Below are positions 11,711-31,900 of a stretch of DNA of 64,000 bases, piece by piece. Position 1 is the first letter of the stretch, and the number at the start of each line of letters is the position of its first letter. Source of the DNA: Clostridium sp. (GTDB lineage: Bacteria > Bacillota > Clostridia > Clostridiales > Clostridiaceae); contig NZ_JAKVOI010000001.1 of assembly GCF_022482905.1 (NCBI RefSeq), positions 3,349,958-3,413,957 of the forward strand. The letters are read 5' to 3'. A program made the translations under genes and the position numbers. The notes below the pieces were generated by a model. That model was not told where the DNA came from. It worked only from the letters and a program-made list of their open reading frames with translations, and did not search any database.

Positions 11711-11752
11711 ATTTGTAAACTCATAATAAAATAATGATTAAGGGGTGGAGAT

Positions 11753-13159
11753 ATGAATTTTTTAGAACTAATTAAAACGGGAGTTAATTGGGTATTAAAT
11801 TTAGGTGCAGCTACAATGCTACCGATTATAATGATTATCTTCGGGCTGATTTTAGGACAAGGATTTAAAAAGTCATTCAAGTCAGGGGTAACCATAGGCA
11901 TTGGATTTGTCGGACTTAATCTTGTTATTCAATTGCTGACTAATTCTGTAGGAGCAGCAGCCCAGGCATTGGTCAAAAATCTGGGCGTACATTTAAGCAT
12001 AATAGATGTAGGGTGGCCTGTGGGAGCGGCTATAACATTTGCAACACCTATAGCAGCTTTGCTGATTCCAGCTATTTTCATATTCAACATGATACTGCTT
12101 TATTTTAATATGACCAAGACTATGGATGTCGATATATGGAACTACTGGCATTTGATATTCCCAGGTGCAATGGTTTACTATGCTTTTGATAAGAATATAG
12201 TCTTGGCTATAGTTGTAGCCCTGATTAATACATTTGTTATTTTCAAACTTGCGGATTGGACGGCACCTGTTATTGAACACTATTTTGGACTTCCAGGTAT
12301 ATCATTGCCTCATGGTGAAACTGTAAACTTTGCTCCAATTATGTATACATTGAATAAAATTGAAGATAAGATTCCTCTTTTAAACAAGGTTGTAATCAAT
12401 GAAAAGATAATTGAGCAGAAAATGGGAGTATTTGGTGAACCCCTGACTATAGGGCTGATATTGGGACTGATATTAGGGGCATTGGGAAGATATAATGTGG
12501 CAAATACATTGACATTAGGAATTCAAATGGCTGCGGTAATGGTTTTAATGCCTAAGATGGTAGGGCTGCTCATGGAGGGTTTAATGCCTATATCGGAAGG
12601 TGCAAGGGAATTCATATCCAAAAAATTTCCAGGTAAGGAGGTTTATATAGGATTAGATGCCGCAGTTGTTGTAGGAAATCCTTCAAATATGGCTGTTGCA
12701 CTTATAATGATACCCATTACTATAGTATTATCAATTATATTGCCTTATAATAGATTGCTTCCTTTTGCAGATTTGGCTGCATTGCCGTTTACTGTTATTT
12801 GGGCGGTAGCAGCTACCAAAGGAAATATATTCAGAGGATTGATTAATTCTATTATAACCATGTGTGGAGTATTCTTTATTGCAACAAATTTAGGTGCACT
12901 TACTACGACATTAGGTCATGCGGTAGGTTTTGCTTTTCCTAAAGGAGCAACTATGATTTCAGGTATAGATATGAGCTGTCATGTTACGTTATGGATACTG
13001 CTGAAGATTTTTGATATTAAAAATTTACCTGTGTTTTTAGTTGGATTAATTGCTTTAATCGCTTATGCAGGAATGTGGTTCTGGGTTAGAAATGATATTA
13101 AAAAGCAATACAATTTAGATGACAATTTCAATAAGATAGAGGGGAAGCTTGAAAAATAA
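11753..13159 (+). CDS. PTS IIC component, galactitol (GAT) family (cluster 1)
   Basis: 468 residues, hydrophobic with about ten to twelve membrane segments, matching the EIIC-GAT family length. Family-like stretches include GPVGAAITF-type VGWPVGAAITF, FGEPLTIGLILGLILG and LMEGLMPISEGAREF. It is the membrane channel that binds and moves the sugar alcohol while IIB phosphorylates it. Start ATG 11753 follows AAGGGGTGGAG. It sits between the dehydrogenase and the cysteine-less IIB-like gene. Confidence 0.9.
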   Translation: MNFLELIKTGVNWVLNLGAATMLPIIMIIFGLILGQGFKKSFKSGVTIGIGFVGLNLVIQLLTNSVGAAAQALVKNLGVHLSIIDVGWPVGAAITFATPIAALLIPAIFIFNMILLYFNMTKTMDVDIWNYWHLIFPGAMVYYAFDKNIVLAIVVALINTFVIFKLADWTAPVIEHYFGLPGISLPHGETVNFAPIMYTLNKIEDKIPLLNKVVINEKIIEQKMGVFGEPLTIGLILGLILGALGRYNVANTLTLGIQMAAVMVLMPKMVGLLMEGLMPISEGAREFISKKFPGKEVYIGLDAAVVVGNPSNMAVALIMIPITIVLSIILPYNRLLPFADLAALPFTVIWAVAATKGNIFRGLINSIITMCGVFFIATNLGALTTTLGHAVGFAFPKGATMISGIDMSCHVTLWILLKIFDIKNLPVFLVGLIALIAYAGMWFWVRNDIKKQYNLDDNFNKIEGKLEK

Positions 13160-13185
13160 ATTCTACTGAAAGAAGGGACAAATAT

Positions 13186-13464
13186 ATGAGTAAAAAGATA
13201 GTGGTTGCAACAGGTACGTCACAGCATAAAATGGAATTTGCTGTAAATTATATAATGGAATATTGCAAAAAGAAAGGATTGGATGTGGAAGTCGAAGGAG
13301 TCAATGTGTATAAAGCAGATATTCAAGCATTAGATCCTAGTGTTGTTGTATTAATAGGACCCAATAGTTCTAGAATAGATAAACCTGTCGTTATGGGTAC
13401 AGCATTTGTCACTAAAATAGGTATGGAAAAAACATGTGAAGATATTATTAAATATTTAAAATAG
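13186..13464 (+). CDS. PTS IIB-like protein lacking the phosphorylatable cysteine
   Basis: 92 residues, aligning over its length with the cluster 1 IIB: KIVVATGTSQHKM matches KILAVCGTGVATST, with threonine where the active cysteine should be. The following helix and KKGLDVEVEGVNV also match KKGLDVDVTECKA. It cannot take part in ordinary IIB phosphotransfer, so it is either a decaying duplicate or a non-catalytic partner (for example a regulator or a substrate-specificity subunit). Good ribosome binding site (AGAAGGGA) and intact frame argue against simple decay. Between IIC and the GpsA-like gene. Confidence 0.75.
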   Translation: MSKKIVVATGTSQHKMEFAVNYIMEYCKKKGLDVEVEGVNVYKADIQALDPSVVVLIGPNSSRIDKPVVMGTAFVTKIGMEKTCEDIIKYLK

Positions 13465-13481
13465 ATTAGAGATGTATCAAT

Positions 13482-14522
13482 ATGGCAAAAGTGACTATAA
13501 TAGGCGCAGGAGCGATGGGTAGTGCTTTAACTGTTCCATTGGTTGAAAATGGACATACGGTTAATCTATGGGGAACGGAGTTGGACAAAAAAATAATCGA
13601 TAATCTGAAAGATGGAATGAAGCATCCAAAACATAAATGCAGGCTTCCTTCAGAAATAAACACTTTTTATGTTAATCAGCTTGATAAGGCCATGGAAAAT
13701 ACGGATCTTGTGATAATGGCTATAACATCAGATGCATTTAGAAAAATTTTCGTGAGGGTTATACCATATTTGCATGAGAGTATGATAGTTGGAAGTGTAT
13801 CAAAAGGTTTTGAGAGGAATAGCAAAGGAAAAGTAATAATACTTCCGGAAATGATGAAAGAAGCTCTTCCTGATAAAATGAAAAATAAAATTTCATTTGT
13901 AGCAGTTGGTGGACCATGCAAAGCAATTGAGGTTATATGGAAATCTCCTACATGGGTTACTTATTCAAGCGAAAATATAGAAAGCGCCAAATATATGCAG
14001 AATATTCTAAATACTACAGATTATAGAGTTCAAGTGAATGATGATGTAATTGGAACTGAGATATGTGCGGCAATGAAAAATGCATATGCGATATCCCTTG
14101 GAATAGCAGAAGGATTTAAAAACAGAACAGGCTTTTTTCATAAAAATGCAAAGGGAGCATTGTTTACTGCAGCTATAAAAGAAATGATGATACTTGTAGA
14201 AGCTCTTGGAGGAAATACTGAATCTGTTATTGGACTCCCGGGTATAGGAGATCTTGAACTTACAGGTGAGGCAGGTAGAAACAGAGTCATAGGTGAAGCT
14301 ATAGGTGGAGGTTTAAGCGGAAAAGCTGCTATGAAAAAGATGGATGATGAAGGCATAACTGTAGAAGGATGCCAGGCTGTGAAGCTGGGCTTTGATCTAG
14401 TAAAGCAGTTGGAAATAGATCAAAAATTAAGTGCTGAGGATATGCCACTTCTCAACAATTTATATGAAATACTTTATAAAGATAAATCAGGCTATGAAGT
14501 CATGACTAAATTATTACAATAA
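13482..14522 (+). CDS. Glycerol-3-phosphate dehydrogenase (GpsA)-like oxidoreductase
   Basis: 346 residues, the GpsA family length. Rossmann motif IIGAGAMGSALT at the N-terminus, SVSKGFE, the catalytic lysine context CAAMKNAYAISLGIAEG near residue 195, and the substrate loop LPGIGDLELTGEAGRNRVIG. Canonical GpsA reduces dihydroxyacetone phosphate to sn-glycerol-3-phosphate for lipid synthesis. Here the gene is embedded in a PTS catabolic operon, so it more likely handles a polyol phosphate or disposes of DHAP made by the following aldolase. Ribosome binding site is weak (TTAGAG). Confidence 0.8.
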   Translation: MAKVTIIGAGAMGSALTVPLVENGHTVNLWGTELDKKIIDNLKDGMKHPKHKCRLPSEINTFYVNQLDKAMENTDLVIMAITSDAFRKIFVRVIPYLHESMIVGSVSKGFERNSKGKVIILPEMMKEALPDKMKNKISFVAVGGPCKAIEVIWKSPTWVTYSSENIESAKYMQNILNTTDYRVQVNDDVIGTEICAAMKNAYAISLGIAEGFKNRTGFFHKNAKGALFTAAIKEMMILVEALGGNTESVIGLPGIGDLELTGEAGRNRVIGEAIGGGLSGKAAMKKMDDEGITVEGCQAVKLGFDLVKQLEIDQKLSAEDMPLLNNLYEILYKDKSGYEVMTKLLQ

Positions 14523-14548
14523 TATTTTAGATATGGAGGAAGATAATT

Positions 14549-15211
14549 ATGTTGGAAAAATTAAAGAAGGAGTTAGTAGAGATAGCGAAAGAGGCGGACA
14601 GCTCAGGGCTGTGCAGGCATAAATCAGGAAATTTCAGCATAAGGGACAGGAAAACGGGATATGTGGTTGTAACACCCACAGGTGTGGACAGAAAGGAATT
14701 GAGTTATCACGACATATGTGTGGTGGATATGAATGCAAGTGTAGTTGAGATAGAGACAAATGTAAGACCCACAAGTGAATTCCTGATGCACATTGCAGTA
14801 TACAGGACAAGAAAAGATGTGCATTCTGTAATCCATACACACTCCAAATTTGCAACGGCATTTGCGGTACTTGGCAAATCAATACCGTCAATAGTCTATG
14901 AGTGTGCAAACCTTAAGCTGAAGGATGGAATAATTCCTGTTGCGCCTTATGGCACACCTGGTACCACCGAGCTTTCAAACAGTGTAGTAGAGCCTATACA
15001 GAGAGCTGATGCAATACTTCTTGAAAGCCATGGAGTATTGACGGTGGATGAAGATCCGAAGGAAGCTCTCCTGAAGGCGCATTATGTAGAAGAGCTTGCT
15101 GAAATATATTATAGAGCTCTTATAATAAATGGAGGAAAGGAACCAAAGGTAGTTCCTGTTGAAGAAATTCAAAGATGGAAGTATCCTTCTCAGATAAAAA
15201 TGAACAAGTAG
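14549..15211 (+). CDS. Class II aldolase (fuculose-phosphate aldolase-like), copy 1
   Basis: 220 residues, the size of FucA-type class II aldolases. Visible features: KSGNFSIRDR (substrate loop), catalytic glutamate in RPTSEFLMH, zinc histidines in VIHTHSKFATAF, and a third histidine in LLESHGVLTV. It probably cleaves a ketose phosphate to DHAP plus an aldehyde; 3-oxo-acid phosphate decarboxylase (OtnC-like) activity is possible. A second copy at 26568 is about 91 percent identical at protein level and has exact shared DNA stretches of about 45 bases. Confidence 0.85.
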   Translation: MLEKLKKELVEIAKEADSSGLCRHKSGNFSIRDRKTGYVVVTPTGVDRKELSYHDICVVDMNASVVEIETNVRPTSEFLMHIAVYRTRKDVHSVIHTHSKFATAFAVLGKSIPSIVYECANLKLKDGIIPVAPYGTPGTTELSNSVVEPIQRADAILLESHGVLTVDEDPKEALLKAHYVEELAEIYYRALIINGGKEPKVVPVEEIQRWKYPSQIKMNK

Positions 15212-15238
15212 AATAATATTATTTTGGAAGTGGTGGGG

Positions 15239-15994
15239 ATGAAAGGTAAATTTAGTGGAAAGGTAGTGCTTGTTACTGGAGCAAGCAGGGGAATAGGAAT
15301 GATCACATCCCGAACCTTTGCAGAAAAAGGAGCTTCCGTGTATATGCTGGCCCGTAATGATAATTTGGGAATTGGTCTTCAAACTGAATTTAGAAACAGG
15401 GGACTTGATGTAAGGTACCTTCACATGGATATCACCGACAAAAACAATGTTGATTCAGTAGTAGATAAAATTATAAAAAAGGAGGACAAAATTGACATAC
15501 TTGTTCATAGTGCAGGTCAATCCATGAGAACCAGGTTTATAGATATGTCATATGAGGAATGGGCAAAAGTTATAAATGTAAATTTGAATGGAAGTTTTTT
15601 GATATGCAAGGCAGTTGGACAGCACATGATAAAACGCAAATATGGAAAGATTGTCATAATTTCGTCAGGTTCAGCTTTAACAGGCACTGGAGGGGGCGCT
15701 CATTATGCTACGTCTAAAGCTGGACAGATTGGATTTACAAGGGCACTTGCAAATGAACTGTCTAGGTACAATATAAATGTAAATTCTATAGCGCCAAGAA
15801 GTATTAATACAGAGTTGTTAAATAAATTATATCCTACTCAAGAAAAAAGAAAGATACTTATAGATAAGATACCTATTGGTAGAATTGGAGAACCAGAGGA
15901 TATAGCAAATATTGCGTTATTTTTGTCTTGTGAAGATAGTAGCTTTATATCTGGGCAGTATATACTCGCTGATGGAGGAAGAACATTTTCATAA
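15239..15994 (+). CDS. Short-chain dehydrogenase/reductase
   Basis: 251 residues from ATG 15239, preceded by GGTGGGG; an upstream in-frame TTG has no site. Classical SDR: NAD(P)-binding VTGASRGIGM at residue 11, NNxD region, NVNLNGSFL, catalytic serine in IISSGSAL and the YxxxK pair in HYATSKAGQIGF. The C-terminus ends in GQYILADGG. In this operon it may oxidise a polyol phosphate or reduce an aldehyde from the aldolase; the substrate cannot be told from sequence. Confidence 0.82.
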   Translation: MKGKFSGKVVLVTGASRGIGMITSRTFAEKGASVYMLARNDNLGIGLQTEFRNRGLDVRYLHMDITDKNNVDSVVDKIIKKEDKIDILVHSAGQSMRTRFIDMSYEEWAKVINVNLNGSFLICKAVGQHMIKRKYGKIVIISSGSALTGTGGGAHYATSKAGQIGFTRALANELSRYNINVNSIAPRSINTELLNKLYPTQEKRKILIDKIPIGRIGEPEDIANIALFLSCEDSSFISGQYILADGGRTFS

Positions 15995-16031
15995 TCTAAA
16001 CGAAAATAAAATTTTGTAGGAGGAATAAAAA

Positions 16032-17078
16032 ATGACAGAAAAAATGAAAGCATTGGTACTCGAGGGACCTGATGATATTTCACTGAAGGAAGTTGATAAA
16101 CCTATATGTGGAGACAATGATGTGCTGCTCCGTATCAAGGCTATAGGACTGTGCGGTTCCGACATGAGGACAATTACCTTTGGACATTATAAAGTGAAAT
16201 ATCCACAGATAATCGGGCATGAGATAACTGGACAAGTTGTTGAAACAGGAAAAAATGTAGCCAAATTTAAAAATGGAGACAGACTATTTGTTTCACCAAT
16301 TGTACCCTGCCATGATTGCAGGCCTTGTAAACTTGGCCTGGACGGTTTATGTGACGATCTCGTTGTCATTGGTACTCAGATACAGGGAGACTATGCAGAA
16401 TACATGCTTCTCACTGAAAAGATATTAAGCAAGGGGCTTCCACTGCTTATTCCGGATGATCTTTCCTATGAAGAAGCCGTTATGACCGAGCCGCTGTCAT
16501 CAGTATATGCCTGCCAGGAAAATGTGAATGTAACTTTGGGGGATACTGTAGCTATTATTGGAATGGGGCCGATAGGCAGCCTTCATACCGAACTGGCTAA
16601 AATAAGGGGGGCAAAAACAGTAATAGCAATTGAACAGTCTGAGAGCAGACTTGAAATGGCAAAGGAATTTGGAGCCGATTATCTTATAAATTCAAGTAAA
16701 GATGACCCGGTTTCCAGAGTCAGAGAAATAACAGGCGGCTGGGGAGCAGAAAAGGTAATAGTGGCCTGCCCGTCAACGGATGCACAAAAGCAGGCGGTAT
16801 CAATGGCATGCAAGGCAGGTACGGTTGTATTCTTTGGAGGAGTTCCAAAGGGAAAACTGACTGAAATTGATACAAATATTGTACATTATAATCAATTGTC
16901 ATTGGTCGGGCATTATGGATATAGTAATTTGCAGGCCAGCAAGGCTTTTTCCCTTATAGCCTCCCACAGATTGAAGGCAGGAAGATATGTGACTCATGAA
17001 CTGCCGCTGGAGGATATAAGAAAGGGTATAGAGCTTACAAGATCAGGAGAAGCAATAAAAGTAGTACTAAAACCTTAG
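16032..17078 (+). CDS. Zinc-dependent medium-chain alcohol dehydrogenase, second in cluster 1
   Basis: 348 residues, sorbitol/threonine dehydrogenase family. Catalytic zinc residues in IGLCGSDMR and IIGHEITGQ, structural zinc cysteines in CHDCRPCKLGLDGLC, nucleotide-binding VAIIGMGPIGSLH. Clearly diverged from the dehydrogenase at 10661. Last gene before a strong terminator, so it closes the cluster 1 operon. It may be a polyol (phosphate) dehydrogenase; its position next to the SDR suggests the cluster handles more than one alcohol oxidation step. Confidence 0.82.
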   Translation: MTEKMKALVLEGPDDISLKEVDKPICGDNDVLLRIKAIGLCGSDMRTITFGHYKVKYPQIIGHEITGQVVETGKNVAKFKNGDRLFVSPIVPCHDCRPCKLGLDGLCDDLVVIGTQIQGDYAEYMLLTEKILSKGLPLLIPDDLSYEEAVMTEPLSSVYACQENVNVTLGDTVAIIGMGPIGSLHTELAKIRGAKTVIAIEQSESRLEMAKEFGADYLINSSKDDPVSRVREITGGWGAEKVIVACPSTDAQKQAVSMACKAGTVVFFGGVPKGKLTEIDTNIVHYNQLSLVGHYGYSNLQASKAFSLIASHRLKAGRYVTHELPLEDIRKGIELTRSGEAIKVVLKP

Positions 17079-17107: not shown

Positions 17108-17145
17108 AAGAAGAGGCAATGAAATATGTTTGCCTCTTCTTTTGT
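17108..17145 (+). terminator. Intrinsic terminator at the end of cluster 1
   Basis: AAGAAGAGGCAA and TTGCCTCTTCTT pair perfectly over 12 bp with a 10-nt loop, followed by TTTGTT. It separates the cluster 1 operon from levR2, which has its own sigma-54 promoter. Confidence 0.92.
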
Positions 17146-17265: not shown

Positions 17266-17281
17266 TGGCATGAAAGTTGCT
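17266..17281 (+). promoter_or_regulatory. Sigma-54 promoter upstream of levR2
   Basis: TGGCAT, five bases, then TTGCT, the same core as the promoter before the cluster 1 PTS genes. It lies 29 bp before ATG 17310. Because only 34 bp separate levR2 from the next PTS gene and no other -24/-12 match is visible there, this promoter probably drives the whole operon including the activator itself. Confidence 0.78.
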
Positions 17282-17309
17282 GATTAATAAAAGTGATAGG
17301 GGTGAAGTT

Positions 17310-20183
17310 ATGAGTTTGGCAGACAGACTTTTGGACTTGATAAGTGTTGAAAACAAGAAGGATCCGCATACGGATATGAAACTTGCAAAAATGCTATCTA
17401 CTACGCGCGAAAATGTTACTGCTGTAAGAAAAGAACTTAACATACCTAATTCAAGAGAAAGGAGGAAACCGTATTTAGAAAATGCACTTGAAACGATACT
17501 GAGCCGAAATGATATGATATCAATTTCAGATATTACAAAACAGCTCATGAGCTATGGATTCAACATATCAAGACATATAGTTGAAGAAATGTTGAAGGAA
17601 AAGAAAACAGACAATAGATCCATTGAATTGAATTCAGATCCTTTTCAAAACTTGATTGGATATAATGGGAGTTTAAAAACCTGTATAACTCAAGCCAAGG
17701 CGGCAATATTGTACCCACCTCTGGGACTGCCCACCTTGATTATTGGAGAAAGTGGTGTAGGAAAGACTCAATTTGCCGAAACAATGTATAAATTTGCATC
17801 ACAGAGAGGTGCATTGACAAGTAATCTGCCTTTTGTAGTTTTCAATTGTGCAGATTATGGAGATAATCCACAGCTGCTGCTCTCCATATTATATGGTTAC
17901 AAAAAGGGAGCATTTACAGGGGCAGACAATGATAAGGAAGGAATTGTTGAAACTGCAAATAATGGAATATTATTTTTAGATGAAATTCACAGGCTCCCTC
18001 CAAAAGGTCAGGAAATGTTATTTTCGATACTGGATAAAGGAACATTCAGAAGATTGGGTGAAACGAATGTAGAAAGAAAAGTGAACATAATGTTGATAGG
18101 AGCAACTACTGAAGATATTCAATCCAATTTGTTGTTGACGTTTAGAAGGCGTATACCAATGATAATAACAATACCGGCATTGGAGCAAAGATCTGTTCTG
18201 GAAAAGGTTCAGCTCATACAATATTTTTTCCAGCGGGAGTGTAACAGAATAAACTTGAAAATTTTTGTCGAAGCAAAGGTTATTGAGATATTTGCCGTGG
18301 AAAAATTTAATGGAAATATTGGTGAATTGAAGAGTAAAATACAAGTCACCTGTGCCAGGGCATTCATGAAGTACATCAATAAATTTGATGAAATTATAAA
18401 TATAGGTACCAGTGAAATTTTTGAAATAACCAGAGATTACGAGGATATCAATATAGAAAATTCAAATATAATTCAGGCCAAAAATTATGTTAGGGATACG
18501 TTGTTTGTTCCCTTTGTGGATAATGAATTCAAATCTGTAAGATATATAGAAAATGATGAATATTCGCTTCCAAAGGATTTTTATAGACAGATAGAACAGA
18601 AATATTATGAGTTAAAGAAGTCACATAAGGATTTAAAAGATATAGAGAAAATATTGTGGCAGTTTATCAACAAACAATTTAAAAGACTGCAATTTACAGA
18701 CAATAAAGGTAATATTTTTTCACTGGATGAACTGGCAACAATTGTGGACAAGGATATATTGGAGAATATCAGAAAGCTGAGAAATGCAATGAAGGGAAAA
18801 TACTCCAATTGTCATTTTAATGAAAATGTTTTCCTGTATTTAGGTATACATCTGCAGGAAACTGTAAACAGGCTTAAACTGAGAAAACCCATAATAAATA
18901 TGAATTTATCCAAAATAAAAGAGGAGCTTCGTAAAGAGTATGAATTAGCTTTGGAATTCAGCATATCACTTGCAAAAGTAAAAAATATTTCAATACCTGA
19001 AGATGAAGTCGGATTTATAGCATTGTATATAAAGACGGCAATACAGGACAAACTTGTTAAAAATCATGTCGGGATAATAGTTATATCACATGGGAAAATA
19101 GCCACTGAGATAGTGAATGTGGTAAAAGAACTTTTGAATATAAATTTTCCGGTAGCAATTGACATGCCCCTGACTGAAAATCCTTCAGTAACCTATCAGA
19201 AAATCCTTCAAGTATCAAAAAAGTTAAATGAAGGAAAAGGCATACTGTTTCTTGTGGATATGGGATCTCTCGTAAATGTGGGAAATATGGCAAGTGAAAA
19301 TCTTGGGATAGATACCAGAACTATTGATAGAGTTGATCTGCTTACAGTGCTTGAAGCGGTCAGAAAAGCATCCATACCGGAAAATGATCTCGATAGTATA
19401 TATTTTAGTTTGGTCAAATCAAGATATGGATATTATCCTTTACCATTGAATATAAAGGAAAATGACAAACCGCCGGTAATAATTTCACTTTGCCTCACTG
19501 GAAAGGGAATGGCAAAACATATAAGTGAACAACTTTCAAAAAGGTACAGGGATGTAAAAATATTTCAGATTGGAATTATGGAGGAAATGATTTCGGAAAA
19601 AATAAAGAAACTTCAGAATAGTTATAAAATAATTGCGGTTGTAGGAACCATAAATCCTGAGATCAGCGGTATAAATTTTATACCATACGAACCCAATCTG
19701 TTTAATGAAGAACTTAAAAGAATTGATGTGTTTTTAGAATCAAAAAATAAAAACATTCTTGCAAATGTTATAAATGAAGATTTAATATTATTCGAACCCT
19801 GTGTGGAACACAAGCGGAAAGCCATCGAGCTTGGTTGTTCACTGTTAGTCAATAAAGGATATGTAGACAGGAAATTTCTTGATTGTGTTTTGCAGAGAGA
19901 AAAAATATCATCAACTTTTTCAAAGGGAGGCGTAGCGCTTCCACATGGAGATTTCTCTCATGTTATAAGATCGTCAATTGTGTTTGTCAAACTTAAAGAT
20001 CCTATTGACTGGGGGAAAGGCAAAGCACAGATCATATGTCTTCCTGCGTTGAAAGTAAATGATAAAAGGATTGTTACTGGACTTCTGAAGTTGTTTTTAA
20101 ATATGAATTTTATAAACACATTAAAAGAAGCAAAGGATGCTGTGGATTTTAAAAATATAATACTGGAAGGACTAAAACAGTAA
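17310..20183 (+). CDS. LevR-family sigma-54-dependent PTS-regulated activator (cluster 2)
   Basis: 957 residues from ATG 17310 with AGGGGTG upstream; a longer frame starting at 17277 would put its start codon inside the -12 element. Same architecture as the cluster 1 regulator: Walker A GESGVGKT near 145, GAFTGA near 200, Walker B NGILFLDEIHR, one PTS regulation domain with GIHLQETV, EIIA-mannose-like ISHGK near 593, EIIB-like CLTGKG near 727, and C-terminal EIIA-like LPHGD near 876. It should activate the PTS 2 operon in response to PTS phosphorylation state. The two regulators are clearly homologous along their length but well diverged. Confidence 0.9.
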   Translation: MSLADRLLDLISVENKKDPHTDMKLAKMLSTTRENVTAVRKELNIPNSRERRKPYLENALETILSRNDMISISDITKQLMSYGFNISRHIVEEMLKEKKTDNRSIELNSDPFQNLIGYNGSLKTCITQAKAAILYPPLGLPTLIIGESGVGKTQFAETMYKFASQRGALTSNLPFVVFNCADYGDNPQLLLSILYGYKKGAFTGADNDKEGIVETANNGILFLDEIHRLPPKGQEMLFSILDKGTFRRLGETNVERKVNIMLIGATTEDIQSNLLLTFRRRIPMIITIPALEQRSVLEKVQLIQYFFQRECNRINLKIFVEAKVIEIFAVEKFNGNIGELKSKIQVTCARAFMKYINKFDEIINIGTSEIFEITRDYEDINIENSNIIQAKNYVRDTLFVPFVDNEFKSVRYIENDEYSLPKDFYRQIEQKYYELKKSHKDLKDIEKILWQFINKQFKRLQFTDNKGNIFSLDELATIVDKDILENIRKLRNAMKGKYSNCHFNENVFLYLGIHLQETVNRLKLRKPIINMNLSKIKEELRKEYELALEFSISLAKVKNISIPEDEVGFIALYIKTAIQDKLVKNHVGIIVISHGKIATEIVNVVKELLNINFPVAIDMPLTENPSVTYQKILQVSKKLNEGKGILFLVDMGSLVNVGNMASENLGIDTRTIDRVDLLTVLEAVRKASIPENDLDSIYFSLVKSRYGYYPLPLNIKENDKPPVIISLCLTGKGMAKHISEQLSKRYRDVKIFQIGIMEEMISEKIKKLQNSYKIIAVVGTINPEISGINFIPYEPNLFNEELKRIDVFLESKNKNILANVINEDLILFEPCVEHKRKAIELGCSLLVNKGYVDRKFLDCVLQREKISSTFSKGGVALPHGDFSHVIRSSIVFVKLKDPIDWGKGKAQIICLPALKVNDKRIVTGLLKLFLNMNFINTLKEAKDAVDFKNIILEGLKQ

Positions 20184-20217
20184 ATAATTATTTATGTAAC
20201 TAAGGAGTGATTGTTAA

Positions 20218-20667
20218 ATGTTAGATCCAGATTTGATTTTATTAAATGTAGAAGCAAAAAAATCGGAAGATGTTATAAACATGTTAGGAAAAATTATGCT
20301 GTCAAAGAACTATGTAAAAGATAATTATATAGATGCAGTATTGGAAAGAGAGAAAAGTCTGCCTACCGGGCTTGATACTAAAGATATATGTGTTGCAATT
20401 CCTCATACGGATTCTGGACATGTCAATGTATCCAGTATAGGTATAGCAACTTTGAAAGATCCGGTTCAATTCAGTATGATGGTAGATCCTGAAAAGAAAT
20501 TGAATATAGATATAGTGTTTCTACTGGCAGTCAAAGATCCAAATTCTCAAATAAAGCTTCTAAAGAACCTTATGTCGGTTTTCCAAAATGAACAGCTGCT
20601 AAAAAATTTGAAATCAGCAAGAAATAAAAAAGAAGTTATAGACTTGTTAAGCTTTATAGCTGTATAG
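20218..20667 (+). CDS. PTS IIA component, galactitol/fructose type (cluster 2)
   Basis: 149 residues, a PTS_EIIA type-2 domain with the phosphohistidine in VAIPHTDSGHV (about residue 63). Starts 34 bp after levR2 with AAGGAGTG. It feeds phosphate to the IIB component encoded next. Homologous to the cluster 1 IIA (REKSLPTGL versus REKVFPTGL), so the two PTS loci share ancestry. Confidence 0.88.
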   Translation: MLDPDLILLNVEAKKSEDVINMLGKIMLSKNYVKDNYIDAVLEREKSLPTGLDTKDICVAIPHTDSGHVNVSSIGIATLKDPVQFSMMVDPEKKLNIDIVFLLAVKDPNSQIKLLKNLMSVFQNEQLLKNLKSARNKKEVIDLLSFIAV

Positions 20668-20720
20668 ATCAAATTTATATAGCTTAAGTATAAATATTTA
20701 TATGAAAAGGGGTTTTAATT

Positions 20721-21029
20721 ATGAAAAAGGCTTTTAATGTTTTGTCGGTATGTGGTTCAGGAACTGTAACTTCATCTATGATTGCAGAAAAATTAAAGGA
20801 TGCCATGGAGGAAAAAGGTATTAGAATTACTGCAACTGAGGCCAAGCCAACAGAGGCACTTAATCTTGCACAGGGAGGAGGATTTGATTTTATTACTCAT
20901 ACAAGTCCGTTGCCAAAAGCCGATTATGGCATACCAACTATAAATGCAGTAGGATTTCTTACAGGCTTTGGAGAAGAAGAGTTTCTGGAGGAAGTTATGA
21001 AAGTAATAGAAAAGTTGAACAGCAAGTAA
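20721..21029 (+). CDS. PTS IIB component, galactitol type (cluster 2)
   Basis: 102 residues with an intact phosphocysteine P-loop, VLSVCGSGTVTSSM. GatB-like fold length. Between IIA and IIC genes of the second PTS, with AAAAGGGG as ribosome binding site. The pair of conserved cysteine-containing IIB proteins in the window makes the cysteine-less third IIB at 13186 stand out. Confidence 0.9.
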   Translation: MKKAFNVLSVCGSGTVTSSMIAEKLKDAMEEKGIRITATEAKPTEALNLAQGGGFDFITHTSPLPKADYGIPTINAVGFLTGFGEEEFLEEVMKVIEKLNSK

Positions 21030-21052
21030 AAAATTTTACAGGGGGAATATAA

Positions 21053-22471
21053 ATGTTTTTACAAGATCTAAAATATATTTTTGATACATTTGGTGCTCCG
21101 GTTTTTGTGCCTATAATAATATTCATTATATGTAAGGTTTTGAAGGTTACAACAAAAAAGTCATTTTTTTCAGCTTTATATGTAGGTGTGGGCTTAGAAG
21201 GATTTAATCTGCTTATAAATTCTTTTACGCCGATTATAACACCTGTTGTCAGACAAATGGTAAAGGGGACAGGAATTGATCTTCCTGTATTTGATGTCGG
21301 GTGGCAGGCTACGGCATTGGTTGCCTATTCGACAAATGTCGGAATGATTTTCCTGTGCCTGGGTCTGGTTTTACAGATAGGATTGTTCTTGATAAAGTGG
21401 ACGGATATATTTCAGCCCTCGGATCTGTGGAACAATTACTCATACATGGTATGGGGGTCCATGGCCTATGCAGTCACCAAAAATATGTTTTTGGCCCTGG
21501 GACTTATGATATTTTTGAACTTGATTAGTTTATTGATATCTGAAGTCATGGCTAATAGGTGGTCAAACTATTATAAATATCCTAACTGTACGATAATAGC
21601 ACTTCACAATATAGAGCCGGCGATTTTTGCGGTAGTATTGGACCCGCTGCTTAATAAACTTGGTTTGAACAAGGTTAAACTGAATCCGGAAGAATTGCAG
21701 AAGAAGCTGGGATTTCTGGGCGAACCGGTTTCACTTGGCTTAATACTCGGTCTGCTAATTGGAATACTGGGAAATATATCACGAATAGGTACCGTTGCAG
21801 GATGGGGACAAATTGCAATAACAGGTGTTGCTACAGCCGCAATAATGGCTATATTTCCGAAGGTTGCAGGTATATTTGCCCAGGCTTTTCTTCCTATATC
21901 TCAGGCTGCAAGCAAGGCGGTAAAAGGTGAATCTGGAAACGGCCGTAAATGGTTTCTTGGAGTTAATGATGCAGCAGGGTATGGTGAGCCGGCTACGTTG
22001 ATATCGGGTATTGTTTTAATACCTATAATGGTAGTCATAGCTATGATTCTGCCTGGAAACAAGACTTTGCCTGTAGTGGATCTTGTAGCAATACCATTTA
22101 TGGTGGAAGGTATAGTGTGTCTTGTAAATGGGAATATATTGAAAGTATTGATTACGGGAATTATATGGTTTTCCATTGGCTTATTGATGTGTACGCATAC
22201 GGCTTCATTATTTACTCAAATAGCTGCCTCTGTTGGTGTAAAATTACCTGTTGGGGCACTTCTAATAACCAGTTTTAATATATTGGGTAAACCTCTGGTC
22301 GGTCTTATATTTATGGCATTTCTTACAGAATCACCTGTGCTTATAGGTATCTGTATAGCTGTATATTTGATAGTGTATGTCTTGTTTAAAAAGAATAAAG
22401 TTGCTGTATATGACTATCTGGAAAGGACTGCAGCCAAAAATGAAGAGGTAGAAGAGAAATTGGAGTCATAA
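21053..22471 (+). CDS. PTS IIC component, galactitol (GAT) family (cluster 2)
   Basis: 472 residues, strongly hydrophobic with about ten or more membrane segments; [19 protein letters not shown] and [15 protein letters not shown] correspond to the same stretches in the cluster 1 IIC. It forms the membrane transport subunit of the second PTS. The neighbouring araD-type gene argues that its substrate is a pentitol or a related compound rather than galactitol itself. Confidence 0.9.
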
Positions 22472-22505
22472 GTTTTGCAAATTTCAGAAAGGAGAATATG
22501 TAAGA

Positions 22506-23198
22506 ATGCTGGAAAAGTTAAAAGATGAAGTACTTCAGGCAAATTTGGATCTGCCGCGGTATAATCTTGTAAAGTTTACCTGGGGAAATGTAAGCGGTAT
22601 AGATAGAAAATCAGGACTGTTTGTTATAAAACCAAGTGGTGTGGACTATGACAAACTTTCACGAGATGATTTGGTAGTCATGGATCTGAAGGGTAATATA
22701 GTTGAAGGAAGTTTAAAACCATCGTCGGATACACCTACACATTTAGTACTTTATAATAGTTTCCCGGATATAGGGGGTGTAGTTCATACACATTCTACCT
22801 GGGCTACAATAATGGCACAGGCAGGTGTTGGAATACCGGCATTTGGAACAACTCATGCCGATTTCTTTTACGGGGATGTTCCCTGTACTAGAAAGTTAAC
22901 TCAAGCTGAAGTAGAAAATGATTATGAGAAAGAGACAGGCAATGTTATAGTTGAAACGTTTGAGCATGAAAATGAAAATAAGATTCCAGCTGTTCTTGTA
23001 AGGGGACATGGACCTTTTACATGGGGAAAAGACGCTTCTGATGCAGTTCATAATTCTGTAGTTCTTGAGGAAGTAAGTAAAATGGCCTACTATAATTTAA
23101 ATATCAACAGTCAACTTGATAAGTTAGATAGCTATATACTTGACAAGCACTATTTTAGAAAACACGGTAAAAATGCATATTATGGACAAAATATATGA
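22506..23198 (+). CDS. araD: L-ribulose-5-phosphate 4-epimerase
   Basis: 230 residues, AraD/SgbE/UlaF length. Diagnostic AraD segments: [35 protein letters not shown], zinc-site [41 protein letters not shown], and the C-terminal HGKNAYYGQ that carries the catalytic tyrosine. It converts L-ribulose-5-phosphate to D-xylulose-5-phosphate, linking the operon to the pentose phosphate pathway. Unlike arabinose operons there is no isomerase or kinase here, so L-ribulose-5-phosphate would have to come from oxidation of a PTS-imported pentitol phosphate. Confidence 0.9.
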
Positions 23199-23224
23199 AA
23201 TTATGTTCTTAAGGAGGGTAATAA

Positions 23225-24583
23225 ATGAAGGATTTAGCAAGCTTCAGTGTAGAGGAAATGACAGGACTTGAGTACAAATGTTCATGTGGAAGGACTCACA
23301 GGGTGGAAATAGATGATATAAAGGTGGGCAGTGGTGTCATAGATGAACTCCCAAATATAATAAAGGATTATGAAGGAAGAAGAATATTTATTGTAGAGGA
23401 TGTCCATACCTTTGAAGTGGCAGGGAGAAAAGTCCAAGAGCTGTTAAAGAAAGAGTTCAAAGTAAGCAGATATTTGTTTGACAATAAACATCTGGTACCC
23501 GATGAGACAGCCCTTGGAAGGCTGCTCTTTGAAATACCGAAGGATACGGAACTTGTTGTTGCAGTAGGTTCAGGGGTTATCAACGATGTTTCAAGATTTT
23601 TGAGCTACAAGGTGGGGATACCCTATGTAATTGTTGGGACGGCACCCTCCATGGACGGATATGCTTCAGTAGTTTCACCTCTCATATGCGACAGCGTGAA
23701 GGTTACCTATGATGCAGCATATCCAAGGGCCATAATCGGTGACACAGATATAATGAAAGAGGCACCCATGCAGATGCTCCAGGCGGGACTCGGAGATATA
23801 CTTGGCAAATACACTGCACTTGCAGACTGGCACATTGCAAATGTATTAAATGGAGAATACCTCTGCAGTGAGGTGGAAAATCTGGTCATGACCTCTCTTA
23901 AAAAATGTGAAGAGGCTGCCTCCGGCTTGACAGGCAGGAGGGCTGAAACTGTGAAGAATATAACGGATGCACTGATTATGTCTGGAATTGCCATTGGTAT
24001 GGTGGGTGCATCAAGGCCGGCCTCCGGCGGAGAACATCAGCTTTCACACTGTTATGAAATGATTTTTATGAACAGGGGTGAAGAAGAAAAGTGGACCCAC
24101 GGCAATACCGTAGGTGTGGGCGTTGGAATTGTGGCTTATGCATACAAATATGCAGCAGGAATTGACATCAATAAAGTACTTGAAAAAGGCGATTACCTGC
24201 ATCTTGACAGAGACAGGTGGACGCAGAATATAAAAGATGTGTTCACAAGAAGTGCCGAAAACATCATTGAATTCAAACAGGACAGCATCAATTTTGAACC
24301 CGAAAAGAGAAAGGCTCAAATGGACAGGATACTTGAGAAATGGGAGGACATAAAAAAGATATGCAGTGTCAACGTTCCAGAGCCGGAAAATATAATCGGA
24401 ACCCTGAAAAAATGCGGTGCCGTATGGAATCCACGGGATATAGGAATAGACAGGGAACTGTTTATAAAAAGTTTTGCTGCTGCAAAGGACATGCGCAAGA
24501 GATACGGCATCTTTCAACTCCTTGAAGATATAGGCAAGCTGGATGAGGCAGGCGGCTGTGTAGCAGATATTTATTACAATTGA
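23225..24583 (+). CDS. araM: AraM/EgsA-family dehydrogenase (sn-glycerol-1-phosphate dehydrogenase family)
   Basis: 452 residues. N-terminal KCSCGRTH motif typical of AraM-type proteins; NAD-binding VVAVGSGVINDVSRF; PSMDGYASVVSP; metal ligands in GDILGKYTA, GGEHQLSHCYEM and THGNTVGVG. Bacillus AraM makes glycerol-1-phosphate from DHAP with NADH and a divalent metal. It follows araD by 26 bp and is followed by an AraL-type phosphatase, echoing the araD-araL-araM block of Bacillus arabinose operons. As the only dehydrogenase directly beside araD, it may instead oxidise a pentitol phosphate; this is inference. Confidence 0.82.
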   Translation: MKDLASFSVEEMTGLEYKCSCGRTHRVEIDDIKVGSGVIDELPNIIKDYEGRRIFIVEDVHTFEVAGRKVQELLKKEFKVSRYLFDNKHLVPDETALGRLLFEIPKDTELVVAVGSGVINDVSRFLSYKVGIPYVIVGTAPSMDGYASVVSPLICDSVKVTYDAAYPRAIIGDTDIMKEAPMQMLQAGLGDILGKYTALADWHIANVLNGEYLCSEVENLVMTSLKKCEEAASGLTGRRAETVKNITDALIMSGIAIGMVGASRPASGGEHQLSHCYEMIFMNRGEEEKWTHGNTVGVGVGIVAYAYKYAAGIDINKVLEKGDYLHLDRDRWTQNIKDVFTRSAENIIEFKQDSINFEPEKRKAQMDRILEKWEDIKKICSVNVPEPENIIGTLKKCGAVWNPRDIGIDRELFIKSFAAAKDMRKRYGIFQLLEDIGKLDEAGGCVADIYYN

Positions 24584-24641
24584 ATTCTGTTTCAGAAACA
24601 GTTTGAATAAAAGGTTGTATTGAAAGGGGGAGGTAGTATAT

Positions 24642-25451
24642 ATGGCAGACAGGACGCAAGATATTTTGAAAAAGGTAAAATGCTTTATCCTCGATCTTGA
24701 TGGAACTGTTTATCTCGGAGATAAAATACTGGAAGGTTCCATGGAATTTCTTGAAGAACTGACGAAAAACGATATCGAGTTCAAGTTTTTCACGAATAAT
24801 TCTTCTAAAAATTCACAATTTTATGTAAACAAGATCAGGAAAATGGGGTATGAGCTAACGGACGACATGATGCTCACTTCAAATCAGGTAATAATAAATT
24901 ATATAAAACAGAACATGGCGGACAGGAGGATATTTGTCCTTGGCAATGAATACCTGAAAGCCGATTTCAGGGAGGCAGGAATAAATCCCGATGGAGATGA
25001 TGCAGAGGTGGTTGTTGCGGGATTTGACACATCACTTGTATATGAAAATATATCCAGGGCCTGTGAATTTATAAGAAATGGAGCTGTATTTCTTGGAGTG
25101 AATCCCGACTTCAACTGCCCTACTGAAAATGGTTTTATACCGGACTGCGGTTCCATATGTGCAATGATTACAGCTTCAACAGGAAGAGTTCCTGAATTTT
25201 TCGGAAAGCCCTCCCGTCATACCTTGAAATATATTCTTGAAGACACAGGATTCAAGGAAGAGGAAATTGCCTTTGTAGGAGACAGGCTTTACACCGACAT
25301 AGCCATAGGGAAGGGAAACAATTCTGTAACCATCCTTGTATTGTCGGGTGAAGCAAAGCTTCATGATCTGGATGATTCTGAAATACAGCCTACGCTTGTT
25401 TTCAGTTCACTGGGTGATGTGAAAGATGTATTGAGACAAATTTATAAGTAA
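24642..25451 (+). CDS. HAD-IIA sugar phosphatase (AraL/NagD-like)
   Basis: 269 residues. HAD motifs: FILDLDGTVYLGD (motif I, nucleophile aspartate), FFTNNSSKN (motif II), lysine in FFGKPSRHTLKY (motif III) and FVGDRLYTDIAIG (motif IV); the C2a cap between them marks the HAD-IIA/NagD class. AraL of Bacillus is a promiscuous sugar phosphatase that removes excess pentose phosphates or DHAP-derived products. Here it could detoxify accumulating phosphates of the PTS route, or dephosphorylate the glycerol-1-phosphate from the preceding gene. Confidence 0.82.
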   Translation: MADRTQDILKKVKCFILDLDGTVYLGDKILEGSMEFLEELTKNDIEFKFFTNNSSKNSQFYVNKIRKMGYELTDDMMLTSNQVIINYIKQNMADRRIFVLGNEYLKADFREAGINPDGDDAEVVVAGFDTSLVYENISRACEFIRNGAVFLGVNPDFNCPTENGFIPDCGSICAMITASTGRVPEFFGKPSRHTLKYILEDTGFKEEEIAFVGDRLYTDIAIGKGNNSVTILVLSGEAKLHDLDDSEIQPTLVFSSLGDVKDVLRQIYK

Positions 25452-25479
25452 TTTAGTAGGAAATGGAGATGGGTCTTAT

Positions 25480-26547
25480 ATGAAAATTGTGGTTGTAGGG
25501 GATACTCTGGTAAGTTCGGACTATATGGCAGAACAAGCCAAACTGCTTTTGCCCGGCAGGCAAAAAGAAATTATAAAATATGACTGGGAAATGACTTCAA
25601 AAGAAAAGTTCCAGCAAGTGATGTTGAATATAGAAAAAAATGGACCATATGCTGAAGCAGTTCCTGAAGATATTGAAAAAGCTATTGTTGAAGATGCAGA
25701 TATATTTATAGGGCATTTTTGTCCTCTTTCTGGTGAAATCCTGAAAAAGTGTAGAAAGCTTAAACTGATAGGAACCTGCAGGGGAGGTGTTGAGCACATA
25801 GATGTAGACACTGCTACAAAAATGAATATCCCTGTTATACATGTAATTAGAAATGCTGAACCTGTAGCTGAATTTGCAATAGGACTTATGATTGCTGAAT
25901 CTAGAAATATAGCAAGGAGCTATCTGGGAATAAAAAATGGAATCTGGAAAAAAAAATTCCCAAACAGTAAATATACTTCCTGTCTTAAGGACAAAAAGGT
26001 TGGAATTCTTGGCTTGGGCTATATAGGGAAACTGGTTGCCAAAAAGTTGACAGAACTTGGCGTGGAAGTAATAGGGCATGATCCATATGTATCCCAGGAT
26101 ATGTTGGATTCTCAAGGAATTAAAGTAAAATTGGTGCCTTTGGATCAATTGTTCAGTCAATCTGACATAGTATCCCTTCATATCAGATTTACAGAGGAAA
26201 CAAAAAATTTTGTTGACATGAAACTCCTTTCTAAAATGAAGCCAAGTTCTTATCTGATTAATACAGCCAGGGCAGGAATACTTGACCATGATTCCATAGT
26301 AAAAGTACTTCAGGAAAATAGAATAGCTGGAGCTGCAATAGATGTGTTCTGGGATGAACCTATCAAAAAAGAAGATCCAATATTAGAGCTGGATAATTTG
26401 ACCATGACGTCCCATATAGCAGGGGATACTGTAGACGCAATATCTAAAGCACCAAGACTTCTTATAAATGTTATGAATGAATTTTTTAATGAAGGCAAAA
26501 TGGACATGTTAGTAAATAAAAGTACGGCAGAATATTTAAATATATAG
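25480..26547 (+). CDS. D-isomer-specific 2-hydroxyacid dehydrogenase (phosphoglycerate dehydrogenase-like)
   Basis: 355 residues. Rossmann motif VGILGLGYIGKLVAKK near residue 175 and the catalytic triad: arginine in NTARAGILD, glutamate in FWDEP, histidine in MTSHIAGDT. There is no C-terminal ACT domain, unlike many serine-pathway enzymes. Its place in a sugar alcohol operon, just before a class II aldolase, suggests oxidation or reduction of a sugar-acid (phosphate), as in tetronate-type pathways. The substrate is not determinable here. Confidence 0.78.
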   Translation: MKIVVVGDTLVSSDYMAEQAKLLLPGRQKEIIKYDWEMTSKEKFQQVMLNIEKNGPYAEAVPEDIEKAIVEDADIFIGHFCPLSGEILKKCRKLKLIGTCRGGVEHIDVDTATKMNIPVIHVIRNAEPVAEFAIGLMIAESRNIARSYLGIKNGIWKKKFPNSKYTSCLKDKKVGILGLGYIGKLVAKKLTELGVEVIGHDPYVSQDMLDSQGIKVKLVPLDQLFSQSDIVSLHIRFTEETKNFVDMKLLSKMKPSSYLINTARAGILDHDSIVKVLQENRIAGAAIDVFWDEPIKKEDPILELDNLTMTSHIAGDTVDAISKAPRLLINVMNEFFNEGKMDMLVNKSTAEYLNI

Positions 26548-26567
26548 ATGATTGGGAGGAAACACTT

Positions 26568-27224
26568 ATGTTGGAAGAATTAAAAAAGGAATTGGTAAAT
26601 ATAGCAAAAGAAGCGGACAGCTCAGGACTGTGCAGGCATAAATCAGGAAATTTCAGTATAAGGGACAGAAAAACGGGATATGTGATTGTAACCCCAACAG
26701 GTGTGGACAGAAAGGAATTGACCTATCACGATATATGCGTGGTGGATACGGATGCAAATGTAGTTGAAATAGAGACAAATGTAAAGCCTACAAGTGAATT
26801 TCTGGTGCATATTGCAGTGTACAAGACAAGAAAAGATGTGAATTCAGTAATTCATACCCACTCCAAATTTGCAACTGCATTTGCGGTACTTGGCAAAGCA
26901 ATACCGTCAATAGTTTATGAGTGTGCAAACCTCAAGCTGAAGGACGGGATAATTCCTGTTGCGCCTTATGGAACACCAGGTACCACTGAACTTTCAAACA
27001 GTGTGATAAAACCTATACAGAGAGCTGATGCAATACTTCTTGAAAGCCATGGAGTAGTGACGGTGGATGAAGATCCGAAGGAAGCACTGCTGAAGGCACA
27101 CTATGTGGAAGAACTTGCCGGGATATACTATAGAGCTCTTATGATAAACGGGGGAAAGGAGCCAAAGGTAGTTCCTATTGAAGAAATTCAAAAATGGAAA
27201 TATCCTTCCCAGATAAAATTTTAA
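26568..27224 (+). CDS. Class II aldolase (fuculose-phosphate aldolase-like), copy 2
   Basis: 218 residues, about 20 substitutions from the copy at 14549. Active-site segments are unchanged: KSGNFSIRDR, PTSEF, VIHTHSKFATAF, ESHGV. Differences are mostly conservative, and the C-terminus is three residues different. The duplication is recent compared with the diverged PTS paralogues. It closes the cluster 2 operon and is followed by a terminator shared with the convergent galE gene. Confidence 0.85.
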   Translation: MLEELKKELVNIAKEADSSGLCRHKSGNFSIRDRKTGYVIVTPTGVDRKELTYHDICVVDTDANVVEIETNVKPTSEFLVHIAVYKTRKDVNSVIHTHSKFATAFAVLGKAIPSIVYECANLKLKDGIIPVAPYGTPGTTELSNSVIKPIQRADAILLESHGVVTVDEDPKEALLKAHYVEELAGIYYRALMINGGKEPKVVPIEEIQKWKYPSQIKF

Positions 27225-27241
27225 TATATGCAAAAAGAAAA

Positions 27242-27270
27242 TCCCTCACATTATAGTGGGGGAACTTTTC
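27242..27270. terminator. Bidirectional terminator between aldolase copy 2 and galE
   Basis: TCCCTCAC and GTGGGGGA pair (one T-G wobble) around a 6-nt ATTATA loop. The right flank AACTTTTCCTTTT serves the plus strand, and the A-rich left flank gives a T-tract on the minus strand, fitting two convergent genes. Confidence 0.82.
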
Positions 27271-27273
27271 CTT

Positions 27274-28260
27274 TTATTCTGAATATCCATCAGGATGATT
27301 TTTATGCCATTTCCATGCGGTATCGATAATTGTTTCAAGTGAATTGAATTTAGGTTTCCATCCCAATTCTTCAATGGCTTTATCTGAAGAAGCTATTAGA
27401 ATTGCAGGGTCTCCGGCACGTCTTTCTGCAATTTCGGATTTAATGTTTATTCCGGTAACTCTTCTGGCAACTTCCACTACTTCTCTTACTGAAAAACCTT
27501 TTCCGTTTCCCAGGTTGTAAATCCTGCTTTCACCTCCAGATTGAAGTCTTTTCAATGCCAGCAAGTGGGCTGATGCAAGGTCCGATACATGCACATAATC
27601 TCTTATGCAGGATCCATCTGGAGTATTGTAATCATCGCCAAAAATCATTATTTTATCTCTTTTACCTGAAGCAGCCTGCAGTATTATAGGTATCAGATGA
27701 GTTTCAGGATTGTGATCCTCACCGATTTTACCATTTATATGTGCTCCACAGGCATTGAAGTATCTCAGAGCCGTATATTTTATGCCATGGGCCCTGTCGC
27801 ACCATTTCAATATTTTTTCGACTGCAAGCTTTGATTCACCATATGGGTTTGTAGGAAGTGTTCTGTCTTTTTCCATTATAGGCACGTTTTCAGGTTCACC
27901 ATAGGTCGCAGCAGTTGAAGAAAATACAATATATTTTACATCATATTTTTTCATTGCTTTCAAAAGCTTTATAGTTGAGTATATATTATTTTCAAAATAC
28001 TTCAAAGGATTCTGGACGCTTTCTCCAACAAGTGAATTTGCTGCAAAATCTATTACTGCGTCAATATGATTCTCAGTAAAAACCCTATTCAATATTGAAT
28101 CATCTCTAAGATCACCAATATAGAGTTTACCTCCTAAGAGAGATTCTCTGTGACCGGTCTGGAGATTATCAAGTACTATAACATTATGATTATTTTCTAA
28201 TAAATGTGCTGCCATGTGGCTCCCTATGTAACCGGCGCCACCGCAAACTAGTATATTCAT
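27274..28260 (-). CDS. galE: UDP-glucose 4-epimerase
   Basis: 328 residues from the ATG at 28260, which is preceded by AGGAGG on the minus strand; the frame extends ten codons further without a site. Extended SDR: NAD motif GGAGYIGSH at residue 8, FSSTAATYG with the catalytic serine/threonine, and the YxxxK pair in PYGESKLAVEK. It interconverts UDP-glucose and UDP-galactose for galactose use and surface polysaccharides. It stands alone, with a TATAAT-like -10 near 28299-28304 on the minus strand. Not linked in function to the neighbouring PTS region. Confidence 0.93.
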   Translation of the reverse strand: MNILVCGGAGYIGSHMAAHLLENNHNVIVLDNLQTGHRESLLGGKLYIGDLRDDSILNRVFTENHIDAVIDFAANSLVGESVQNPLKYFENNIYSTIKLLKAMKKYDVKYIVFSSTAATYGEPENVPIMEKDRTLPTNPYGESKLAVEKILKWCDRAHGIKYTALRYFNACGAHINGKIGEDHNPETHLIPIILQAASGKRDKIMIFGDDYNTPDGSCIRDYVHVSDLASAHLLALKRLQSGGESRIYNLGNGKGFSVREVVEVARRVTGINIKSEIAERRAGDPAILIASSDKAIEELGWKPKFNSLETIIDTAWKWHKNHPDGYSE

Positions 28261-31895: not shown

Positions 31896-31900
31896 TCATA

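Follow-up and report, generated by a model that had tools for sequence, protein, structure and literature searches.

An AraM-type dehydrogenase as a proposed polyol-phosphate 2-dehydrogenase in a clostridial PTS operon

Bacillus methanolicus carries atlABCD, a D-arabitol operon linked to the phosphotransferase system (PTS), whose arabitol-phosphate dehydrogenase AtlD is described, in the passages devoted to it, as 51% identical to that of Enterococcus avium (PMC6685057). An operon of comparable outline lies on the + strand of Clostridium sp., in a stretch of 64,000 nucleotides (contig NZ_JAKVOI010000001.1, positions 3,349,958 to 3,413,957; hereafter "the window") of a 3.57-Mb, single-contig genome; Clostridium tyrobutyricum and Clostridium sp. 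cel8 are among its relatives in the genus. As far as the account of atlABCD extends, both have a polyol-phosphate dehydrogenase, here a proposed one, after IIA, IIB and IIC, and in both a ketose 5-phosphate would pass into the pentose phosphate route. The product given for AtlD in that account is D-xylulose 5-phosphate, for which no epimerase is needed, whereas in the window an AraM-type metal dehydrogenase (23225..24583) would take this role and is joined by AraD, an L-ribulose-5-phosphate 4-epimerase (22506..23198). The L-ascorbate (ula) route combines PTS entry with an AraD-type 4-epimerase, UlaF, and has no araA or araB. The window operon shares these features, but it is without the lactonase, decarboxylase and 3-epimerase. 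The arabitol-phosphate dehydrogenase of E. avium is of the Zn type.

In the sections that treat it, the AraM of Bacillus subtilis is a Ni-dependent sn-glycerol-1-phosphate (G1P) dehydrogenase of the arabinose operon (PMC4244643, PMC5059525, PMC13400652); the report of this activity dates from 2008, and passages of two of these papers (PMC4244643, PMC5059525) call the function of the resulting lipid unknown. The window AraM belongs to the same protein family and has the same metal-ligand positions, but the window genome has four longer copies (452-463 amino acids), in four PTS operons that either lack the usual polyol-phosphate dehydrogenase or have a different kind. The AraM of Bacteroides and Halomonas papers is a mutarotase of the same name and was set aside. 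C. tyrobutyricum ATCC 25755 (L029/L034) has an AraM 68% identical to the window's, in the order regulator-IIA-IIB-IIC-GpsA-like-AraM-AraL; it differs from the window in having another kind of PTS enzyme IIC (EIIC), the 459-type, and no AraD. Comparison of such operons suggests that, on balance, AraM probably oxidises PTS-delivered polyol phosphates, as a polyol-phosphate dehydrogenase.

AraM and zinc dehydrogenases in related PTS operons

In the DISPLACEMENT test, genomes were searched by EIIC proteins and not by AraM, so that the sample is not biased towards AraM. The window's own EIIC type (C2-type) was found at E<=1e-90 in 8 of the 398 genomes of the phylum and 11 of the 142 of the family, and 13 loci of at least 450 bits were kept; the 459-type, at E<=1e-150, was found in 8 of 398 and 20 of 142 genomes, giving 27 loci of at least 500 bits. 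Six C2-like matches below 450 bits, from five genomes, were left out (contexts L124-L129), and no AraM was seen in these contexts. Genes were labelled by their best phmmer match to reference proteins, taken from the window genome and a small number of other genomes; labels such as RpiB, Rpe, Tkt and SDR (short-chain dehydrogenase/reductase) are our own. Pfam confirms one example each of the GatD-like zinc alcohol dehydrogenase (Zn-ADH) named ZnC2, the phosphomutase and the GpsA-like protein.

Among these 40 PTS operons, 14 contain AraM, 15 an intact ZnC2, none both and 11 neither (Fisher p=3e-4, which ignores kinship). In all 15 operons ZnC2 is the first gene called after EIIC, and its best NCBIfam match is galactitol-1-phosphate 5-dehydrogenase (291 bits, cut-off 550); the best ZnC2 match in the window's genome is 40% identical. 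The 27 operons of the 459-type show the same exclusion between a GpsA-like protein (10) and another Zn-ADH, ZnADH2 (16), with both in none and neither in one (Fisher 1e-6, likewise ignoring kinship). The pattern reads as the replacement of ZnC2 and ZnADH2 by AraM and the GpsA-like protein, and at least four changes between AraM and ZnC2 states are needed on the EIIC tree. One locus, L071 of genome G319, looks like a transition state: ZnADH2 is intact, ZnC2 lies in two pieces in different frames, and AraM follows directly. ZnC2 is also split into two pieces in different frames in L146, which has no AraM, so that a sequencing error or unrelated decay may account for such a split. Because AraM substitutes for ZnC2, it is the best dehydrogenase candidate of the window operon. 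The sequence-only reading had proposed AraM as a possible PTS-linked pentitol-phosphate dehydrogenase; the displacement of the GatD-like Zn-ADH speaks for this.

A full AraD is present in 7 of the 13 C2-type operons and in none of the 27 of the 459-type, which ties an L-pentulose phosphate to the C2-type EIIC. Four of the seven (L123, L130, L131 and L132) have ZnC2 directly after EIIC, and two, the window and L069 of a distant genome, have AraM. L134 combines a C2-type EIIC and AraD with neither enzyme, and its adjoining genes, read by eye with no family scan, look ascorbate-route-like. L123 and L130, from different families, have ZnC2 proteins with 57% identity. AraM occupies the place after EIIC in L040 and L069; in the window, AraD lies between the two. 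Identity between the window and L069 AraMs is only 35%, and the two belong to different clades; AraM thus seems to have entered this kind of operon on two separate occasions. AraM is absent at E<=1e-10 from the four genomes with ZnC2 and AraD. By itself this exclusion says little, since AraM is found at E<=1e-30 in no more than 29 of the 146 family genomes.

A search by the sorbitol-type IIB gave 24 matches in 20 of 142 genomes, of which 19 were examined and five were not fetched. These 19 loci contain an SDR (15) or AraM (2; L009 and L054), with both in none and neither in two (p=0.035, ignoring kinship). A GpsA-like protein stands alongside the SDR in four loci; in L167, L168, L171 and L173 it lies between SrlM and IIC, with the SDR also present. 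The window's own genome also has an orphan sorbitol-type IIC-IIB (L160, 2264000-2282000) with 92% DNA identity to that of L009. It has no IIA or labelled dehydrogenase beside it, and the next genes, read from the starts of their proteins, are acyl-ligase- and carrier-protein-like.

The window AraM and its partner AraL

By its domain, metal-ligand positions and best solved structures, the window AraM is a member of the G1P dehydrogenase superfamily. It matches the Fe-ADH_2 domain (PF13685) with 111.5 bits (cut-off 28), and residues D191, H271 and H292 align with equal residues of solved G1P dehydrogenases. These positions, which we take to be the metal ligands Asp, His and His of the EgsA/AraM family, are kept in all 25 rows of PTS-linked AraMs. 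The four best solved structures are all named G1P dehydrogenases, and the best NCBIfam match is the G1P dehydrogenase NF002022 (206.2 bits); its cut-off of 413 is not reached, and the window AraM is therefore not filed as such. These best matches favour an ordinary G1P dehydrogenase, which together with AraL would convert dihydroxyacetone phosphate (DHAP) to G1P and then glycerol as an NADH sink, or would make G1P for lipid, the pentitol-phosphate dehydrogenase being encoded elsewhere. So do the linkage or fusion of AraM with AraL and the occurrence of 97% identical AraMs in two different PTS operons, as for a general function. We nevertheless consider this explanation unlikely. An NADH sink would be expected beside the Zn-ADH and SDR versions too, yet AraM occurs with ZnC2 in none of 40 operons and with the SDR in none of 19 loci; the window operon would be left without a polyol-phosphate dehydrogenase of known type, and the match to NF002022 reaches only half of its cut-off. 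In our reading, the window AraM would work like a polyol-phosphate dehydrogenase.

In the window genome there are four long AraMs, each followed by an AraL homologue and each in a different PTS operon. The first is that of the window, of the galactitol (GAT) type and with AraD. The second, at 459 kb (L011), is also of the GAT type, with GpsA-like, AraM, AraL and Zn-ADH genes and no AraD. The third, at 3337 kb (L010), has a mannose-type IIA-IIB-IIC-IID before AraM and AraL, and the fourth, at 3288 kb (L009), is of the sorbitol type, its IIC passing the NCBIfam cut-off. A blastn comparison shows that a mobile araM-araL cassette (23211..25471, + strand) is shared with the 459-kb operon (L011 9178-11437): the 2.26 kb from near the araM ribosome-binding site to just past araL are 96.1% identical in DNA. 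On a tree of 81 AraM proteins, the window copy is sister to the 459-kb copy, inside a clade of mostly 459-type AraMs, which makes a recent copying of the pair into the AraD operon probable. The tree covers the part of the AraM matches that was fetched, with L139 omitted as a duplicate of L074; no AraM open reading frame (ORF) was called in L105, whose match has an internal stop. AraM follows the PTS type only partly on this tree: three of the four AraMs of G319, from C2, 459 and mannose contexts, cluster together, and the sister copies of the window and L011 stand in different operons. The AraMs of L033, L036, L037 and L039 are 93-95% identical to one another and show about 70% identity to that of the window; no gene close to them is labelled as PTS or AraL, and those of L033 and L039 are near a resolvase-like and a TetR-like gene.

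The window AraL-like protein (24642..25451, + strand) is a HAD-IIA phosphatase (TIGR01460, 139.3 bits, cut-off 100.15) with an LDLDGT (DxD) motif. Within the EIIC set, 12 of the 14 operons with AraM also have AraL, against none of the other 26. Over the whole tree, 29 of 81 AraMs have AraL within two genes or are long fused-type ORFs, and this rises to 19 of 24 among PTS-labelled AraMs: the link is strong in PTS operons and looser elsewhere. Four family members of the window genome (L050-L053) have long AraM ORFs, of 727-744 amino acids, and Pfam resolves that of L050, the one scanned, as AraM fused to an AraL-type phosphatase. Each adjoins a ribulokinase-like gene, which is over the cut-off in L050 and called as two ORFs in L053. 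In B. subtilis, too, araL and araM are neighbours. AraL belongs to AraM and not to the AraD pathway. Its presence in these PTS operons only when AraM is there suggests the clearing of an AraM by-product; this is probably its task, with G1P from DHAP as the obvious candidate. The araD-araM-araL set had been read as one module, and this view had to be given up: AraM-AraL pairs occur with GAT, mannose-type and sorbitol-type PTS without AraD, and AraD occurs with the same PTS type with or without AraM, ZnC2 standing in the latter's stead.

Genes of the operon and its neighbours

The genes that the sequence-only reading had named in a LevR/sigma-54 PTS operon are all present, on the + strand and in the place given. 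They form an operon-like set between 17266 and 27263, with 20-58 bases between genes. A sigma-54-like promoter site (TGGCAT-N5-TTGCT, 17266..17281, one mismatch to the consensus) precedes a LevR/DagR-type sigma-54 activator with PRD, EIIA-man and EIIA_2 domains (17310..20183; PF00158, PF00874, PF03610, PF00359), whose ORF opens at 17277, with the ATG at 17310 as the likelier start. Such a site was found before the regulator in four of seven C2-type operons checked (the window, L040, L130 and L132) and not in L069, L123 and L131. With up to two mismatches, the pattern occurs 25 times in the whole window against 26.2 expected, with no excess over chance, so place and conservation, not number, carry the promoter argument. 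All three PTS parts, of the galactitol family, lie within the operon: EIIA of the galactitol/fructose type (20218..20667, PF00359), galactitol-type EIIB (20721..21029, PF02302, with a weak match to NF007643) and EIIC-GAT, the C2-type EIIC (21053..22471, PF03611; TIGR00827 at 243.7 bits, under its cut-off). AraD, AraM and AraL are followed by a D-2-hydroxyacid dehydrogenase family protein (25480..26547, PF02826, PF00389), a second class II aldolase, FucA-like (26568..27224, PF00596), and a terminator-like stem-loop closing the operon (27242..27263; the fold of 27236-27280 has -15.3 kcal/mol).

The window AraD, described as genuine-looking for its YYGQ C-terminus, has held up: it passes the cut-off of the NCBIfam equivalog TIGR00760 (392.9 bits against 389.1) and ends in ...YYGQNI. 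Its translation also contains VVHTHS and RGHG, and these motifs presumably hold the zinc-ligand histidines and the C-terminal tyrosine. The single araA match of the genome adjoins a second araD at 2.89 Mb, both over their NCBIfam cut-offs, and the two AraDs are 63% identical. A sugar porter and an FGGY-type kinase also lie there, and no AraM was seen in this stretch; the kinase was not accepted as araB, as its scores stay below every NCBIfam cut-off (XylB comes closest, with 101 of 380 bits). As for the second aldolase of the window operon, relatives with 67-71% protein identity stand beside AraD in L130 and L132. The two neighbouring PTS operons each have a class II aldolase gene (14521-15199 and 26539-27218), with 89% DNA identity between them, and relatives are found beside AraD in L130-L132.

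The ORF list and the NCBIfam and Pfam scans show neither an isomerase nor a kinase in the operon, as the earlier reading had said, and no pentitol-phosphate dehydrogenase of known type (Zn-ADH or SDR) in 17310-27224. AraM is indeed the operon's sole metal-dependent alcohol dehydrogenase, a 2-hydroxyacid-type dehydrogenase also being present. A neighbouring Zn-ADH (16032-17078) lies on the same strand, about 190 bases upstream of the sigma-54-like site, and a 94% identical twin directly follows araM-araL at 459 kb. It might oxidise the pentitol phosphate in trans, leaving AraM an accessory, but this seems very improbable. Between them lies a terminator (17110..17139, + strand; a perfect 10-bp stem, then TTTTGTT; 12 pairs from 17108 to 17141 in the fold, -17.3 kcal/mol), which ends the upstream operon and, with the sigma-54-like site, sets this gene outside the window operon. 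The protein is also only 36% identical to the ZnC2 of sister operons, and its best NCBIfam match, under the cut-off, is threonine dehydrogenase, not a polyol-phosphate enzyme.

The D-2-hydroxyacid dehydrogenase might itself act on the substrate, and the PTS would then perhaps carry a sugar acid and not a pentitol. Five of the 13 C2-type operons, those of the window and L069 among them, carry the gene. However, it is absent from L040, L130, L131 and L132. L123 has it alongside ZnC2, and L137 and L138 have it alongside another Zn dehydrogenase; it is thus no substitute for these enzymes and probably has another job. We give this explanation slightly less weight still than the one in trans.

The upstream PTS operon (9760-17078) encodes a GpsA-like protein, two Zn dehydrogenases (the last gene being 16032-17078), an SDR and an aldolase, and has a sigma-54-like site at 9760 with one mismatch. 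Elsewhere in the window, long near-perfect inverted repeats at 31900-31944 and 6628-6681 (self-matches of 45 and 55 aligned bases) are perhaps terminators.

The proposed route and its implications

The presence of AraD means that the PTS product must reach L-ribulose 5-phosphate. In the proposed route, the galactitol-family PTS would import a pentitol, most likely L-arabitol, and phosphorylate it at C5. AraM, in place of the GatD-like Zn dehydrogenase of related operons, would oxidise the C2 hydroxyl with NAD, turning L-arabitol 5-phosphate into L-ribulose 5-phosphate, and AraD would convert this to D-xylulose 5-phosphate for the pentose phosphate or phosphoketolase route. Isomerase and kinase would not be needed, and AraL would probably destroy a by-product of AraM such as G1P from DHAP. 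L-arabitol itself is named tentatively, as a plausible substrate that falls somewhat short of probable.

The choice draws on the hand of the enzyme. G1P and sn-glycerol-3-phosphate (G3P) dehydrogenases are described, in a passage of PMC4244643, as transferring opposite hydrogens of NADH. By Fischer-projection reasoning, G1P, L-arabitol 5-phosphate, xylitol 5-phosphate, ribitol 5-phosphate and glucitol 6-phosphate are alike in their configuration at C2, taken relative to the free CH2OH and phosphate ends. If AraM keeps the hand of G1P dehydrogenases, its C2 hydroxyl would be that of these polyol phosphates and opposite to that of D-arabitol and mannitol phosphates. This fits L-arabitol in the AraD operon, sorbitol with the sorbitol-type PTS, and two enzymes of opposite hand in the 459-type operons. 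In an alternative orientation, oxidation next to the phosphate may yield a ketose 1-phosphate for the second aldolase.

Several observations weigh against AraM as a polyol-phosphate dehydrogenase. The B. subtilis AraM has G1P dehydrogenase activity, as reported in parts of PMC4244643 and PMC5059525. An AraM 97% identical to the window's stands at 459 kb in a PTS operon without AraD, so that AraM is not specific to the AraD route; the C2-type operon L040, too, has AraM and AraL without AraD. On the tree, 56 of the 81 AraMs are in loci without any labelled PTS gene. Two of the 14 AraM operons also have some Zn dehydrogenase, of a different type and at the far end in L011, and of another type next to the split ZnC2 in L071. 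Phylogenetically independent pairs number only three, with a mean of 2.5 in the expected direction, 0.5 with no difference and none contrary, so that significance is out of reach. Finally, the 2-hydroxyacid dehydrogenase and the FucA-like aldolase of the operon have no place in the proposed route.

A wider idea, which we hold doubtful, is that glycerophosphate dehydrogenases of both hands have been repeatedly recruited in clostridia as polyol-phosphate 2-dehydrogenases. AraM, with the G1P hand, would act on xylitol, ribitol, L-arabitol and glucitol phosphates, and GpsA-like proteins, with the G3P hand, on those of the D-arabitol type, while AraL would be a repair phosphatase removing the ancestral by-product G1P. 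Ribulokinase also phosphorylates pentitols. If the idea were true, it would explain araM in arabinose operons, where AraM would return pentitol phosphates made by ribulokinase to the pathway.

AraM is usually discussed as the bacterial counterpart of an archaeal lipid enzyme and is counted in arguments on the lipid divide; in the open-licence PubMed Central literature, we found no proposal of it as a PTS-linked polyol-phosphate dehydrogenase. If the role proposed here is true, a G1P dehydrogenase annotation is no sure sign of G1P lipids. Pentitol use would also gain a new class of enzyme, and a PTS route for L-arabitol by way of L-ribulose 5-phosphate would become testable.

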